From a virus, in the IMG/VR virus record IMGVR_UViG_3300005293_000049, positions 1 through 28,415 of that record: 28,415 bases of DNA; one strand, 5' to 3'. Below the pieces are notes generated by a model, which saw only the letters and a list, made by a program, of their open reading frames with translations, ran no database searches and was not told the origin of the DNA. The stretch's first letter is position 1. Each line of letters begins with the position of its first letter. The translations under genes were made by a program, and so were the position numbers. Positions 1 to 28,415 of this stretch are shown here, one piece after another.

Positions 1-11
1 CTTAAAAAATG

Positions 12-55
12 CCCCGGGGGAAAAATCCCGGGAACAATTCCGGATGATCCGGATC
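12..55. repeat. GC palindromes, possible leftward terminator
   Basis: A CCCGGG/CCCGGG hairpin (13-18 with 27-32, loop 19-26) is followed by a second palindrome GATCCGGATC at 46-55. Read on the minus strand, the first hairpin is followed by ATTTTTT, which is the layout of an intrinsic terminator for leftward transcription. On the plus strand there is no T-run after it. What lies to the left of the window is unknown, so the role is only a suggestion. Confidence 0.35.
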
Positions 56-264: not shown

Positions 265-270
265 GTAGTA

Positions 271-406
271 CAGCCCATGTAGGCTTTAAACGGTACCTAG
301 AGCTCCTAGTCTCCGGTCTTCCGGGTCGACCGTGAGAGACTTAGTTGTTCAAACAGGCAGTTGGCGCTGCTGAGCACTAGGTACCGCTTAAGGCCTACAT
401 GGGCTG
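271..406 (+). ncRNA. Structured RNA candidate A, multibranched with a long closing helix
   Basis: A gene-free element with a nearly perfect helix. Bases 271-284 pair with 393-406, 285-289 continue with 388-392 (one G-U), there is one A-C mismatch (290/387), and 291-300 pair with 377-386. Inside, GCTC 302-305 pairs with GAGC 372-375 and encloses three hairpins: 306-344 (CTAGTCTC/GAGACTTAG, extended by CGGTC/GACCG), 346-355 (TGT-TCAA-ACA) and 357-370 (GCAG/CTGC). The plan matches that of the element at 544-668. It is not a canonical tRNA: the arms are too long and there is no proper T-arm. Strand is assigned from the flanking genes only. Transcription is not shown; a DNA-level role such as a packaging site is the alternative. 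Confidence 0.6.
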
Positions 407-411
407 ACCAC

Positions 412-516
412 TTTTGCCTGTAGATGGAATGCCGGTTTAACTCATCGGAAATCTCATCTTACGACACGATCGTAGATTGCCAAATCACCAAACCGGCATT
501 CTTTCCATAGGCAAAA
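412..516 (+). ncRNA. Structured RNA candidate B, long hairpin between A and C
   Basis: TTTTGCCT (412-419) pairs perfectly with AGGCAAAA (509-516). After a small internal loop, ATG 424-426 pairs with CAT 506-508 and GAATGCCGGTTT (427-438) pairs perfectly with its complement at 490-501. The apical part holds a minor hairpin TACGA/TCGTA (460-464/470-474). It does not resemble A and C in sequence, but its 5' strand is the ACTTTTGC motif that also follows A and C. No reading frame of useful length is present. It could be an RNA or a DNA cruciform. Confidence 0.5.
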
Positions 517-543
517 ACTATACCTAAACTACTACACAACTGC

Positions 544-668
544 GTAGGATCTTCCCGAAAGGGTACTAGTTCTCACAATATGTAAGGCTCTTAAACCTTA
601 CACTCCTTTCAAGAGGCGGATTGCTCAGAATCCGTTCGAGACCTAGTGCCCTTTCAGTGAGATCCTAC
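544..668 (+). ncRNA. Structured RNA candidate C, homologue of A
   Basis: The closing helix is formed by GTAGGATCT 544-552 with its complement 660-668, followed by 557-569 with 643-655 (13 pairs, one G-U). TCTC 571-574 pairs with GAGA 638-641 and encloses hairpins 581-587/596-602 (TGTAAGG/CCTTACA), a small CCT-TTCAAG-AGG (605-616) and CGGATT/AATCCG (617-622/629-634). Arm order, the TTCAA-containing middle hairpin and the 3' flank (CCTACATAGCCTGACCACTT) match element A, while most stem bases differ. That is the pattern expected of compensatory change in a folded RNA. No tRNA T-arm or anticodon arm is evident. Function unknown. Confidence 0.6.
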
Positions 669-766
669 ATAGCCTGACCACTTTTGCGTGTTGAGCTACA
701 TACACTTTTAACTTTTGCCTAACCAGCCACTCTGGCATCATCAAACACACTAACCACGGGGGTATC

Positions 767-25033: not shown

Positions 25034-25473
25034 GAAAACCTTTACATCTAATAGTGGCACTACCACTCTACAAGATGGTCTTTTCAATCTACATGAGGAT
25101 TGCCGAACCGCGAGTCAAACGACTGATCTACTTCGTGATCTATCTGCTACTTACGGCACTTGGCGCTACCTCAACATTTATGCCAAACCCCCGCATTGAA
25201 CAACTCCTTGGAGGAATGACTTTGGTCTACCTCTTCGGTGGTCTCATTATCGTTGGGGCATTGGTTTGCCTGTTTTCTGTTCTTCCGGGAATATGGGTGT
25301 TTGAAAGAGCGGGCCTTGTCGCACTTGGTACTGGGGTAGTCTTATATTCGACCACCTTGGTCTTTCTTGGTGCGAGCATTGCAATCACCGTTGTTCCATT
25401 CATTCTCATTCTCATGTTCCTTCTTCGCTGGCTGGACATCAAAGATTATTTGTTAGCGCCTAGAAAGGGATAG
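25030..25473 (+). CDS. Four-helix membrane protein of the lysis region
   Basis: 147 residues from ATG 25030, overlapping the preceding stop (ATGA), with GGAGAAAG upstream. After a basic N-terminus come about four transmembrane segments: YFVIYLLLTALGATSTFM, LVYLFGGLIIVGALVCLF, a third around AGLVALGTGVVLYSTTLVFL and a fourth around ITVVPFILILMFLL. A short cationic tail (DYLLAPRKG) follows. No catalytic motif is seen. Position next to two further membrane genes suggests a role in lysis timing or in membrane-located exclusion. It is too long for a simple holin; an antiholin or accessory protein is possible. Confidence 0.65.
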   Translation: MRKPLHLIVALPLYKMVFSIYMRIAEPRVKRLIYFVIYLLLTALGATSTFMPNPRIEQLLGGMTLVYLFGGLIIVGALVCLFSVLPGIWVFERAGLVALGTGVVLYSTTLVFLGASIAITVVPFILILMFLLRWLDIKDYLLAPRKG

Positions 25474-26176: not shown

Positions 26177-26206
26177 TCGCAACGAATACATGCCCTATAA
26201 TGAAGA
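26177..26206 (+). promoter_or_regulatory. Promoter-like box P0
   Basis: TCGCA at 26177, TACA at 26187 and TATAAT at 26196-26201, the same spacing as seven later copies. It lies directly after the holin gene and 26 bases before the start of the next gene. The TATAAT is a perfect minus-10 element; there is no good minus-35. Confidence 0.7.
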
Positions 26207-26226
26207 ACTCTTGAAAGGAGACTCTC

Positions 26227-26508
26227 ATGTTTAAAAAAGAACACCCCAACACCGGTATGCAACTGGTGATTGACGCAGCAACCGCCGAACTCCTCAAGGA
26301 AAGTCCCGGTTCTGACAGGTACAACAAGATTGTTGAACAGATCGAAAAGCTTAACAAAGTCGCCGCTAGTAATAGAAGCGACAAAGTGAGCAAAGACGGT
26401 CTGATTGCAGTTGCGGGAAACCTGCTCGGAATCGGAATCATCGTAGGACACGAACGATTCGCCGTCATCACCTCGAAAGCCATCGGCTTCGTTGGGAAGT
26501 TCCGCTAG
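26227..26508 (+). CDS. Conserved small phage protein with C-terminal hydrophobic helix
   Basis: A 93-residue protein starting at ATG 26227 behind GAAAGGAG and headed by promoter box P0. The N-terminal two-thirds is soluble and helical (LVIDAATAELLKESPGSDRY NKIVEQIEKLNKV). The segment DKVSKDGLIAVAGNLLGIGIIVG (about 60-80) is a hydrophobic helix, then ERFAVITSKAIGFVGK. The D-x-V-S-x-D-x-L-I/A-x-x-x-G-N-L-x-G-I pattern recurs in small proteins of many actinophages. Their function is not known to me. It is the first unit of the single-gene array and ends before a strong terminator. Confidence 0.75.
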   Translation: MFKKEHPNTGMQLVIDAATAELLKESPGSDRYNKIVEQIEKLNKVAASNRSDKVSKDGLIAVAGNLLGIGIIVGHERFAVITSKAIGFVGKFR

Positions 26509-26539
26509 CATGGACCACACTACCAAGTAATTCAAAATG

Positions 26540-26589
26540 GGAGTCGTGTGTAAGACTTAAAACCTCTTACACACGGCTTCTATTTTTTG
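26540..26589 (+). terminator. Intrinsic terminator after 26227 gene
   Basis: CGTGTGTAAG (26545-26554) pairs exactly with 26566-26575 and is extended by weaker pairs on both sides. The loop is 26555-26565 and TATTTTTT follows at 26581-26588. It ends the transcript that may include the whole late operon. Confidence 0.85.
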
Positions 26590-26592
26590 CAA

Positions 26593-26640
26593 GCGCAATC
26601 CCTACAAAGCCTCCTTTATTTTGCTTTTCTCAAAAACCCC
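26593..26640 (+). other. Decayed terminator or promoter relic
   Basis: CCCTACAAAGCCTCCTTT (about 26600-26617) resembles the right half of the terminator at 27269 (CCCTAACAAGGCCTCCTCTT), but the left arm is missing. A CCCCGGGGG run at 26637-26645 recalls that near position 12. The stretch may be the scar of a lost cassette. No gene is visible here. Confidence 0.3.
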
Positions 26641-26663
26641 GGGGGAGATTTCGGACAAAACAA

Positions 26664-26693
26664 TCGCAAGTTTTACGTAGGCTATAGTGAGAA
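26664..26693 (+). promoter_or_regulatory. Promoter-like box P1
   Basis: TCGCA at 26664, TACG at 26674, TATAGT at 26683-26688, then GAGAACC. It heads the gene at 26717. Confidence 0.75.
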
Positions 26694-26716
26694 CCCCTAC
26701 TAACAAAGGAACCCCC

Positions 26717-26926
26717 ATGAATGGCTATAAGAGAACTGTTATGACCATCGACAACGTTACGATCGATGACCACATCAAGGTATCTGGAGTCTTGTACCGC
26801 ATTACTGCAATCGAAAAGATTGGTACTGCATACTTGATCCAGTTCCAAAATGTGCGTCGTCCGATCCTCAACGGAATGTTGACGCTCGAGACTAACACGC
26901 TTATGCATATCTGGAACCAAAAGTAA
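26717..26926 (+). CDS. Small array protein, 69 residues, probably beta-rich
   Basis: ATG 26717 follows AAAGGA; upstream in-frame codons lie within promoter P1. The protein alternates hydrophobic and polar residues (VTIDDHIKVSGVLYRITAIEKIGTAYLIQFQNV), suggesting a small beta barrel, perhaps SH3- or KOW-like. This is an impression of pattern, not a family match. No membrane segment. It forms one transcription unit by itself between P1 and its own terminator. Function unknown. Confidence 0.7.
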   Translation: MNGYKRTVMTIDNVTIDDHIKVSGVLYRITAIEKIGTAYLIQFQNVRRPILNGMLTLETNTLMHIWNQK

Positions 26927-26934
26927 CACTCAAG

Positions 26935-26966
26935 CTAGAAGACCCTACAAGGCCTTCTAGTTTTTG
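26935..26966 (+). terminator. Terminator of the 26717 unit
   Basis: CTAGAAG (26935-26941) pairs with CTTCTAG (26954-26960), with CC/GG above one mismatch and loop CTACAA; TTTTT follows. P2 begins three bases after the T-run. Confidence 0.85.
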
Positions 26967-26968
26967 CA

Positions 26969-26998
26969 TCGCAGGTTCTACGTATCCTATAGTGAGAA
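26969..26998 (+). promoter_or_regulatory. Promoter-like box P2
   Basis: TCGCA at 26969, TACG at 26979, TATAGT at 26988-26993, then GAGAACC. It heads the gene at 27021. Confidence 0.75.
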
Positions 26999-27020
26999 CC
27001 CCCTCTATGAAAGGAACACC

Positions 27021-27263
27021 ATGTCCCTGCAAGCCCTGAAGCTTACGAAGGAAAACCTCACCACCATCGCCGAAACGATCGGTGCCAACCCCGAATCACT
27101 CAAGATGCTCGCCGCCCAGCGCGACAAGTACATCATGTTTGAAACGATGACGGTTGTCAACGACCGCAACTGGACGATGATCGGTGATGTCCAATTCCGT
27201 CAGAACTTCGTGTTTACAGAACCTGAAACCAACCGCTTTATAGATGTGATATCCTCACACTAA
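27021..27263 (+). CDS. Small array protein, 80 residues
   Basis: ATG 27021 follows AAAGGAACACC; upstream in-frame codons overlap P2 and are unlikely starts. The N-terminal half is helical (ALKLTKENLTTIAETIGANPESLKML), the C-terminal half beta-like with TMTVVNDRNWTMIGDVQF. The start of the gene is rich in GCC, ACC and ATC codons, unlike its end. No family is recognised and no membrane segment is present. It is a single-gene unit between P2 and a strong terminator. Confidence 0.72.
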   Translation: MSLQALKLTKENLTTIAETIGANPESLKMLAAQRDKYIMFETMTVVNDRNWTMIGDVQFRQNFVFTEPETNRFIDVISSH

Positions 27264-27268
27264 AAGTC

Positions 27269-27298
27269 GAGGCCCTAACAAGGCCTCCTCTTTTTTTT
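27269..27298 (+). terminator. Terminator of the 27021 unit
   Basis: GAGGCC (27269-27274) pairs with GGCCTC (27282-27287), loop CTAACAA, with eight T at 27291-27298. The last T is also the first base of P3. Confidence 0.88.
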
Positions 27299-27327
27299 CG
27301 CAGCCTTTACATGTCCTATAGTGAGAA
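27298..27327 (+). promoter_or_regulatory. Promoter-like box P3
   Basis: TCGCA at 27298, TACA at 27308, TATAGT at 27317-27322, then GAGAACC. The box abuts the terminator T-run. Confidence 0.75.
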
Positions 27328-27346
27328 CCACTATGAAAGGACCATC

Positions 27347-27460
27347 ATGAAACGACTGAGATTGTTTCGTAACCAACATAAGCATGAGGTAGATACCACT
27401 ACCGCATACCTACTGTTCGTTGCGATCATGTCAATGTCTGCACATCTAATGGTGCAGTAA
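27347..27460 (+). CDS. 37-residue single-pass membrane peptide
   Basis: ATG 27347 follows GAAAGGACCATC. The product has a basic N-terminus (MKRLRLFRNQHKHE) and one hydrophobic segment from about residue 19 to 36 (TAYLLFVAIMSMSAHLMV). The positive N-terminus would stay inside, placing the C-terminus outside. It has its own promoter and terminator, which is the main argument that it is a real gene despite its size. A five-codon frame from 27333 ends in an ATGA overlap with this start. Function unknown; a membrane-acting small host-takeover protein is one idea. Confidence 0.6.
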   Translation: MKRLRLFRNQHKHEVDTTTAYLLFVAIMSMSAHLMVQ

Positions 27461-27471
27461 TACTGATCTAG

Positions 27472-27504
27472 AAAAGAGAGTCCCCTACAAGGATTCTCTT
27501 TTTT
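27472..27504 (+). terminator. Terminator of the 27347 unit
   Basis: AAGAGAGTCC (27474-27483) pairs with GGATTCTCTT (27491-27500, one G-T), loop CCTACAA, then a T-run to 27504. P4 starts three bases later. Confidence 0.85.
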
Positions 27505-27506
27505 GC

Positions 27507-27536
27507 TCGCAGAAATTACAAGGGATATAGTGAGAA
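27507..27536 (+). promoter_or_regulatory. Promoter-like box P4
   Basis: TCGCA at 27507, TACA at 27517, TATAGT at 27526-27531. TTGCTC, formed at the terminator edge, lies 17 bases before the minus-10 and could be a weak minus-35. Confidence 0.75.
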
Positions 27537-27565
27537 GAAGACCCTATTAATCTAAGGAATAAATC

Positions 27566-27790
27566 ATGAAAATTGTTGAAAACTTTTTTAACGCCCTGTT
27601 CATCAGCCTTGCTGTTGCAATCGTGTTTCTCGGAACTCTGTTCATCGCCAATGGCGGTAACGTAGAGATCACCGAGCGAAACGCGGTTACCAACGTAACC
27701 AAGCCGCTGACTGCCATGGTCGATATCAAGAAAGATCACCACATGTTTGCCAACGACTACGTCATCATCGACATCAGCTACAACAAGTAG
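27566..27790 (+). CDS. 74-residue membrane-anchored small protein
   Basis: ATG 27566 follows TAAGGAATAAATC. An N-terminal hydrophobic segment (FFNALFISLAVAIVFLGTLFIA, about residues 7-28) is followed by a polar domain of about 45 residues (EITERNAVTNVTKPL...DYVIIDISYNK) with no cysteine. It may be a type II membrane protein facing outward or an uncleaved signal-anchor. Single-gene unit between P4 and its own terminator. No family recognised. Confidence 0.7.
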   Translation: MKIVENFFNALFISLAVAIVFLGTLFIANGGNVEITERNAVTNVTKPLTAMVDIKKDHHMFANDYVIIDISYNK

Positions 27791-27795
27791 CCAAG

Positions 27796-27826
27796 ATGAG
27801 AATCCCACACGGATTCTCATTTTTTG
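27796..27826 (+). terminator. Terminator of the 27566 unit
   Basis: ATGAGAATCC (27796-27805) pairs exactly with GGATTCTCAT (27811-27820), loop CACAC, with the T-run at 27820-27825. Confidence 0.88.
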
Positions 27827-27827
27827 C

Positions 27828-27857
27828 TCGCATGGATTACACGGGTTATAGTGAGAA
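27828..27857 (+). promoter_or_regulatory. Promoter-like box P5
   Basis: TCGCA at 27828, TACA at 27838, TATAGT at 27847-27852, then GAGAAAG. TTGCTC precedes it by the same offset as in P4 and P6. Confidence 0.75.
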
Positions 27858-27882
27858 AGAAATCACTATGAAAGGACTTAAA

Positions 27883-27999
27883 ATGTTTAAGAACACCCGT
27901 CAGAAAGACAACGCTATGCTCCTCCTAGAATGGGAAACCAAATTCTACGGACTAGTCGTTGCTGCTGAACTGAACTGCAACAAGAAGAACCTCAAGTAA
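27883..27999 (+). CDS. 38-residue array protein
   Basis: ATG 27883 lies seven bases after AAAGGA. ATG 27868 in the same frame would add MKGLK but would place the ribosome site inside the gene. The product is MFKNTRQKDNAMLLLEWETK followed by a short hydrophobic patch (FYGLVVAAEL) and a basic end. Its length is near the limit of what sequence alone can support; the flanking P5 and terminator make it credible. Function unknown. Confidence 0.55.
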   Translation: MFKNTRQKDNAMLLLEWETKFYGLVVAAELNCNKKNLK

Positions 28000-28008
28000 C
28001 AACCCTCT

Positions 28009-28040
28009 AAAAGCGAATCCCACAAGGATTCTCTTTTTTT
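28009..28040 (+). terminator. Terminator of the 27883 unit
   Basis: GAATCC (28015-28020) pairs with GGATTC (28026-28031), loop CACAA. The lower stem AAAAG/CTTTT has one mismatch; T-run 28034-28040. Confidence 0.82.
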
Positions 28041-28042
28041 GC

Positions 28043-28072
28043 TCGCATAGATTACATGGGGTATTATGAGAA
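28043..28072 (+). promoter_or_regulatory. Promoter-like box P6
   Basis: TCGCA at 28043, TACA at 28053, TATTAT at 28062-28067, then GAGAAG. TTGCTC precedes it. Confidence 0.72.
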
Positions 28073-28099
28073 GAACACCTACCCAAATTAAGGAATACA

Positions 28100-28222
28100 A
28101 TGAAAAACGTAAAGACCCTTGCCGCCCGTATCGCTGCCTCCGCCAAAAATGGCTGGGACAACTACACGGACCCCGACAAGATGGCTAACGAAAAATCGTT
28201 CCCCATGTTTCGAAAGAAGTAA
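28100..28222 (+). CDS. 40-residue basic array protein
   Basis: ATG 28100 follows AAGGAATACA. The protein begins with a basic amphipathic helix (MKNVKTLAARIAASAKNG), has an acidic middle (DNYTDPDKMANE) and a basic end (FPMFRKK). No membrane segment, no recognised family. As with its neighbours it forms its own transcription unit. Codon choice (GCC, ACC, CCC) is richer in C than in the gene before. Confidence 0.58.
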   Translation: MKNVKTLAARIAASAKNGWDNYTDPDKMANEKSFPMFRKK

Positions 28223-28227
28223 CCTCG

Positions 28228-28259
28228 AATAGGAGACCCTACACGGTCTCTTATTTTTT
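28228..28259 (+). terminator. Terminator of the 28100 unit
   Basis: GGAGACC (28232-28238) pairs with GGTCTCT (28245-28251), loop CTACAC, stem extended by A-T pairs; TTTTTT at 28254-28259. Confidence 0.85.
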
Positions 28260-28264
28260 GCCTA

Positions 28265-28294
28265 TCGCAGGAATTACACGGGGTATAATGAAGA
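28265..28294 (+). promoter_or_regulatory. Promoter-like box P7
   Basis: TCGCA at 28265, TACA at 28275, TATAAT at 28284-28289. It heads the partial gene at the window end. Confidence 0.75.
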
Positions 28295-28321
28295 AGTTAA
28301 TCCCCTATGAAAGGAATCACC

Positions 28322-28415
28322 ATGTCAAACGCCAAAGCCCCCCGCGGAGTTCGTTTCCTCGCATCCGTCGCCCTCGTGCCCCACGCCATTGCATCCCTGC
28401 CCAAAGCAGCGATCC
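28322..28415 (+). CDS. Start of a further array gene, cut by the window end
   Basis: ATG 28322 follows AAAGGAATCACC; ATG 28307 is in the same frame but would precede the ribosome site. At least 31 residues are seen: a basic start (MSNAKAPRGVRF) and a hydrophobic stretch (LASVALVPHAIASLPKAA). Third positions are rich in C. The gene continues to the right, so the array does too. Function unknown. Confidence 0.55.
   Translation, partial: MSNAKAPRGVRFLASVALVPHAIASLPKAAI

Follow-up and report, generated by a model that had tools for sequence, protein, structure and literature searches.

Which enzyme reads a promoter-like box that is repeated before one small gene after another in a phage genome? 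The question is raised by a stretch of 28,415 nucleotides (nt), IMG/VR virus record IMGVR_UViG_3300005293_000049, positions 1 to 28,415, here called the window. A pattern scan returned eight exact copies of TCGCA-N5-TACR-N5-TATWRTGA, all on the + strand and each before one small gene, at 26177..26203, 26664..26690, 26969..26995, 27298..27324, 27507..27533, 27828..27854, 28043..28069 (where the hexamer is TATTAT) and 28265..28291. In every copy the first T of the hexamer comes 19 bases after the T of TCGCA, as stated in an earlier reading of the letters alone (the original prediction), and no further copy was present in the record at up to three mismatches, a tolerance at which 0.26 would be expected by chance. 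We conclude that the motif is a promoter, and we put at roughly 70% the probability that its copies are promoters of a phage-encoded polymerase, phrog_4291, rather than of the host enzyme carrying its housekeeping sigma factor.

The window is the left half of the genome of a siphophage that belongs to a large phage group infecting Actinobacteria and Firmicutes. Absence of the motif elsewhere in the array had been named as a point that would count against the original prediction; this did not refute it, and scanning showed that the motif recurs in about a hundred relatives. It was found in more than 120 IMG/VR stretches, and 84,980 bacterial genomes gave only 6 hits, one of which has six copies and is itself phage-like. 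A phage contig binned as Acidobacteria (QHXL01000552.1) carries six copies in 4.1 kb; the group may reach that phylum, or else the bin is wrong. Named phages have 3 to 33 copies each at up to three mismatches. A weight matrix found 134 sites in 14 records, all of them forward, with none in the structural arm and none in shuffled sequences. Likewise, the copies in each of 50 viral contigs lie on a single strand, and the pattern read backwards gives no hits. TCGCA and TACR, held to be invariant in the original prediction, are so within the window; in relatives the constant letters are CGC[AG]-N7-CA, and the core, CGC[AG]-N7-CA-N5-hexamer, is always on the coding strand.

To measure conservation, we picked 419 sites by their hexamer and ribosome site only, without using the upstream boxes. 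Indeed, both boxes stood out, the first with T-31 at 95%, C-30 at 97%, G-29 at 97% and C-28 at 94%, and the second with A-20 at 92%, C-19 at 97% and A-18 at 90%. Between the boxes the sequence varies freely, whereas the boxes themselves are the same in phages of about 40-61% G+C and in two phyla. There are clade differences within this frame: the second box reads TACA, AACA, CACA, TTCA or GCA, the hexamer is followed by GA or AG, and the first box has diverged to TCAC in phages 1706 and CHPC971 and to TTTTA in P162. Ordinary strong host promoters whose upstream boxes were conserved merely through cassette duplication could be imagined, since copies within one genome are often alike and rearrangements at the repeat are recorded in Gordonia cluster DJ phages (PMC11008172). 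However, duplication would not leave the inter-box letters free and the boxes constant across so wide a range, nor does it fit the near absence of the motif from host genomes, and we regard this explanation as very improbable.

Further evidence came from units without a protein. Directly behind motif copies there are 13 distinct, well-paired tRNA genes with no space for a ribosome site; they include those at 11391 in L297, 11893 in L287, 8993 in L285, 242 in L296, 10083 in L304 and 1150 in L281. Their first nucleotide lies -1 to 6 nt behind the hexamer (4 nt or less in 9 of the 13), which makes them almost leaderless. These units exclude a purely translational role, because the motif copies heading them leave no room for ribosome binding. 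In Gordonia phage Mossy the repeat has been proposed to be a start-associated sequence, and this accords with the protein-coding units of the window, where the ATG stands 24-34 nt behind the hexamer and the motif region runs into the ribosome site; but the untranslated tRNA genes largely refute it, some copies have no gene start at the expected place, and its probability is next to negligible. Copies without a protein start include those at 28647, 28992, 30335 and 34373 in Popy and at 2784 in G048, and these may head small RNAs. Transcription by sigma-70 enzymes begins about 7 nt past the hexamer, rarely under 6, so that many of the motif-headed tRNAs would lose their 5' end if transcribed in this way. 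Starts are therefore likely to lie nearer the hexamer, and the 6-8 bases given in the original prediction are probably wrong.

How well, then, does the motif fit a host sigma factor? The original prediction had described the -35 as poorly kept and the boxes as better conserved, and this is borne out: no TTGACA-like -35 was found 16-18 bp before the -10 at the copies in the window, and at positions -35 to -32 of the 419 sites no letter exceeds 46%, there being a T-run and no -35 element. Sigma-70 requires A-11. Although A-11 and T-7 are present in all eight copies of the window, the hexamer positions in the 419 sites are about equally kept except -8, and A-11 shows no higher conservation than T-10 or A-9. 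Moreover, the hexamer can be replaced. Faecalibacterium phage FP_oengus has the same array built on CGCG-N7-CA-N5-CTTTATG, with nine exact copies in 8.7 kb (14 hits at up to three mismatches vs 2.35 by chance; 0/200 shuffles), and one near-copy there heads a stretch with Cas4 and polymerase genes; in Curtobacterium phage Pippin15 the hexamers are mostly TTTAAT or TTTAGT at the same spacing. A host sigma is a poor fit because these hexamers lack A-11 at unchanged spacing. Canonical host promoters elsewhere in the phage genomes were at or below the shuffled level in most, with none in Kenosha, Popy, HotFries and LibertyBell. A phage sigma factor was considered as the reader, but no Sigma70_r2 domain was found in 13 phages. 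Taken together, the motif is probably not read by a host sigma.

The most serious competitor keeps the host RNA polymerase and its main sigma, and adds a phage activator bound to TCGC and CA that replaces the -35 contact, following the logic of T4 MotA or MerR-type regulators. TATAAT is the most frequent hexamer whichever of the two phyla the hosts belong to, a -35 is missing, both boxes (-31 to -27 and -20 to -18) face the same side of the helix, and phrog_4678 and phrog_4695, which are widely shared right-arm genes, could hold such an activator. This would nonetheless leave the CTTTAT and TTTAAT hexamers without A-11, the main group would still keep A-11 no better than its neighbours, unlike sigma-70 promoters, and the tRNA genes would begin too near the hexamer. 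We consider an activator of this kind unlikely.

The candidate that we favour, the phrog_4291 polymerase, was the sole shared non-replication gene with polymerase and DNA-binding features in a comparison of 13 genomes. It encodes a protein of about 900 residues at the right genome end and is present in every relative with a complete right end. The sequence LSGADFDGD occurs in the protein, and ADFDGD, a DxDGD metal site, in all 40 aligned proteins, in which K285, K306 and D523/D525/D527 are invariant; a weak RdRP Pfam match spans the site. The AlphaFold model has a predicted local distance difference test score (pLDDT) of 81.9, and residues 230-740 match QDE-1 (Z 14.8 over 377 residues, 4.5 Å), with further matches to plant RDR2 and to the phage RNA polymerases P74 gp62 (Z 12.2) and P32 gp64 (Z 11.5). 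The protein is therefore predicted, from this model, to have a single-chain two-barrel RNA polymerase fold with two double-psi barrels. It has three helix-turn-helix (HTH) segments, and HTH or sigma-region-4-like matches were found near both ends in 8 of 8 proteins. In nearly all of 78 relatives the second N-terminal HTH retains the helix ES-x-[VI]R; the arginine of this helix is retained in all 78 that were read as well as in FP_oengus and 1706. P162 is the sole phage with SPGSVTN in place of this helix, and its motif copies have TTTTA instead of TCGC.

Motif and polymerase also occur together. Of 50 motif-bearing contigs, 38 have the polymerase, as do 31 of the 32 that are at least 40 kb long. 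The exception among these long contigs, G028, had been taken for a phage with the array and without the polymerase, but its sequence ends before the position of the gene. Conversely, the motif occurs in 21 of 23 polymerase contigs, and the remaining two are 25-kb fragments. Among deposited phages the motif and polymerase counts agree in Gordonia (55/55), Streptomyces (54/54), Rhodococcus (4/4) and Microbacterium (4/4). In Arthrobacter they disagree (62 and 95), a difference probably due to the short BLAST query, by which diverged copies are missed. The window's own phage presumably carries the gene as well; the record covers the left 28.4 kb, and in relatives the gene is at the far right. The polymerase may also drive its own expression, as its gene is preceded by motif copies at a distance of 0.9-1 kb in Giantsbane, Uzumaki and Mudcat. 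Strand bias, conservation, co-occurrence and hexamer replacement, like the motif itself, the terminators described below and the predicted fold, were computed directly.

Several observations weigh against assigning the motif to this polymerase. TATAAT is the perfect sigma-A -10 as well as the most frequent hexamer. The contigs behind the 419 sites were preselected for the motif, so that conservation is somewhat inflated, and the short-spaced tRNAs could come from upstream read-through, although several of the tRNA units directly follow a T-run. The covariation of helix and first box is only suggestive, because P162 represents one event. Co-occurrence could reflect common descent, and no phage was found that has the motif or the polymerase alone through loss. 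The polymerase operon often lies behind a motif copy, so a first dose would have to be supplied by the virion or by weak transcription from the host. Finally, no sequence similarity was detected between phrog_4291 and YonO of Bacillus phage SPbeta.

If phrog_4291 does read the motif, as we infer, promoter recognition might proceed as follows. The CGC[AG] and CA boxes, about one helical turn apart, would probably be gripped by the N-terminal HTH segments of the polymerase; the pairing of segments with boxes is our assignment. The AT-rich hexamer, TATAAT in the window, would be the melting point, and RNA synthesis would begin within a few nucleotides downstream of it, probably on or close to the conserved GA or AG. 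Each unit of promoter, one small gene or tRNA, and terminator would be transcribed separately. Some of the enzyme may be brought into the cell within the virion: the homologue orf75 of Lactococcus phage 1706 is labelled 'structural protein' in its original GenBank record, a label that comes from the record alone, and the homologue in ReqiPoco6 has the same one. This lead suggests that the polymerase may be carried in the virion, and delivery of this kind would make a start possible without a host promoter. That all parts hold at once, with a virion-delivered, HTH-bearing two-barrel polymerase finding its promoters without sigma, its HTHs serving TCGC and CA and the hexamer merely happening to copy the host -10, in widespread phages of Actinobacteria and Firmicutes with few or no host promoters, we judge somewhat short of an even chance. 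The original prediction had named an unusual polymerase contact as one of three options; a non-standard reader is indeed supported, although an RNA polymerase of the relatives' own was not mentioned there.

Part of this has been described before. In the Gordonia cluster DJ phages Vardy, Conley and Mossy, an intergenic 50-bp (43-b) motif with TATAAT occurs in several copies (PMC9671010, PMC10868162, PMC11008172), and was reported for DJ only, as a sigma-70 -10 or a translation start (PMC9671010, PMC10868162, PMC11008172). It shares with our motif the phage group, the place behind the lysis genes, TATAAT and multiple copies, and the DJ phage Kenosha indeed carries the motif analysed here, with eight strong copies between 32213 and 38803, intergenic and mid-genome. 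The published DJ logo is a figure, and the likeness was judged on the features just named. The two upstream boxes, the spread across phyla and the link to a polymerase are not described in those reports. Own promoter motifs are also known for phage two-barrel polymerases: Thermus phage P23-45 has virion and non-virion enzymes, gp96 and gp64, each with its own promoter motif (PMC10770324). The likeness lies in a two-barrel polymerase with DFDGD, a conserved motif before early genes and the fold matches at Z about 12; relatives of P23-45 without the polymerase also lack its motif, and here the motif is present where the polymerase is, for which common descent is possible. In contrast, phrog_4291 is a separate gene with HTHs at both ends and no tape-measure fusion, its motif differs and has a sigma-like TATAAT, and the phages are others. 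YonO is a single-chain phage RNA polymerase with a DxDGD signature and an unknown promoter, whose choice of start sites was stated as an open question (PMC5467207); phrog_4291 shares the single chain and the signature, whereas YonO transcribes late genes, and our motif was not found in the SPbeta region upstream of yonK. Repeated intergenic motifs in Microbacterium clusters EC, EG and EI and the start-associated sequences of cluster K (PMC7302621) likewise precede small actinophage genes, but differ in sequence and spacing. New here are a cross-phylum promoter with two upstream boxes, the replacement of its hexamer and the link to a family of HTH-bearing polymerases.

There are hundreds of natural promoters of this type, several of which have diverged along with their polymerase, and phages of Gordonia, Arthrobacter, Streptomyces and Lactococcus can be cultured; recognition is therefore directly testable. 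If our assignment is right, it explains a repeat that phage annotators call a sigma-70 promoter or a translation start, gives a function to a protein mostly annotated as 'HTH DNA-binding protein' or 'RNA-dependent RNA polymerase', and provides a compact, host-independent expression system. It also bears on how YonO-like and other phage two-barrel polymerases pick their start sites.

In the window, the first motif copy starts 8 nt past the holin stop, so that the first unit is directly 3' of the holin gene. The genes behind the copies, all on the + strand, are at 26227..26508 (93 residues, phrog_5818), 26717..26926 (69 residues, no family), 27021..27263 (80 residues, no family), 27347..27460 (37 residues), 27566..27790 (74 residues, with a hydrophobic N-terminus), 27883..27999 (38 residues), 28100..28222 (40 residues) and 28322..28415, the last being a 5' part that continues past the window end. 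The predicted range of 37-93 residues thus stands, and several products resemble small membrane proteins. RNAfold placed a hairpin followed by a T-run in 7 of 7 complete gaps, all on the + strand, at 26534..26586, 26932..26963, 27269..27297, 27469..27505, 27793..27823, 28009..28037 and 28227..28256; a simple consensus scanner picked up only two of the seven on the + strand, the third and the sixth. Both the separate terminators for the first seven genes and the layout as promoter-gene-terminator cassettes were foreseen correctly.

The relatives comprise Gordonia cluster DJ (Kenosha), Streptomyces Rimavirus and Scapunavirus (Popy, HotFries), Rhodococcus ReqiPoco6, Arthrobacter Giantsbane, Mudcat, Uzumaki and Paella, Microbacterium Damascus, oral siphoviruses and Lactococcus P162. 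Where annotated, their gene order is tape measure, minor tail, lysis genes, a gene of about 95 codons, the array and replication genes; the same array follows the lysis genes in all group members examined, and its first position is again a gene of about 92-99 residues. The sequence CCCCGGGGG lies at nt 12 of the window, as at the left ends of relatives, and at the right ends of these relatives a cos-like sequence, GGGGGAGGGG..CTGCATCGCC, recurs in phages ranging from Streptomyces to Lactococcus; such conserved ends are seen at window 1-30, Popy 56423-56470 and P162 55535-55584, in phages of Actinobacteria and Lactococcus. Iteron-like CCCACTTTTG / CAAAAGTGGGCA repeats in non-coding sequence upstream of the polymerase operon, at 51336-51778 in Popy (L153), 52010-52410 in Damascus (L170), about 52400-52700 in Giantsbane (L179) and 109394-109500 in Paella (L189), look like a replication origin. 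No second shared intergenic motif for late genes emerged, only the cos-like ends and this origin-like repeat. Window 265-766 is non-coding, with long inverted repeats of which at least two are closed by CCACTTTTGC; an Rfam scan of the window, this stretch included, gave no match, and its appearance suggests two or three structured RNAs close to the left end of the genome. Lastly, TCAAAATGGGAGT opens the terminator stem behind an array gene at 26532 in the window, and also at 25163 in Damascus and 27433 in Mudcat, where it is possibly a short reading frame or an RNA element.

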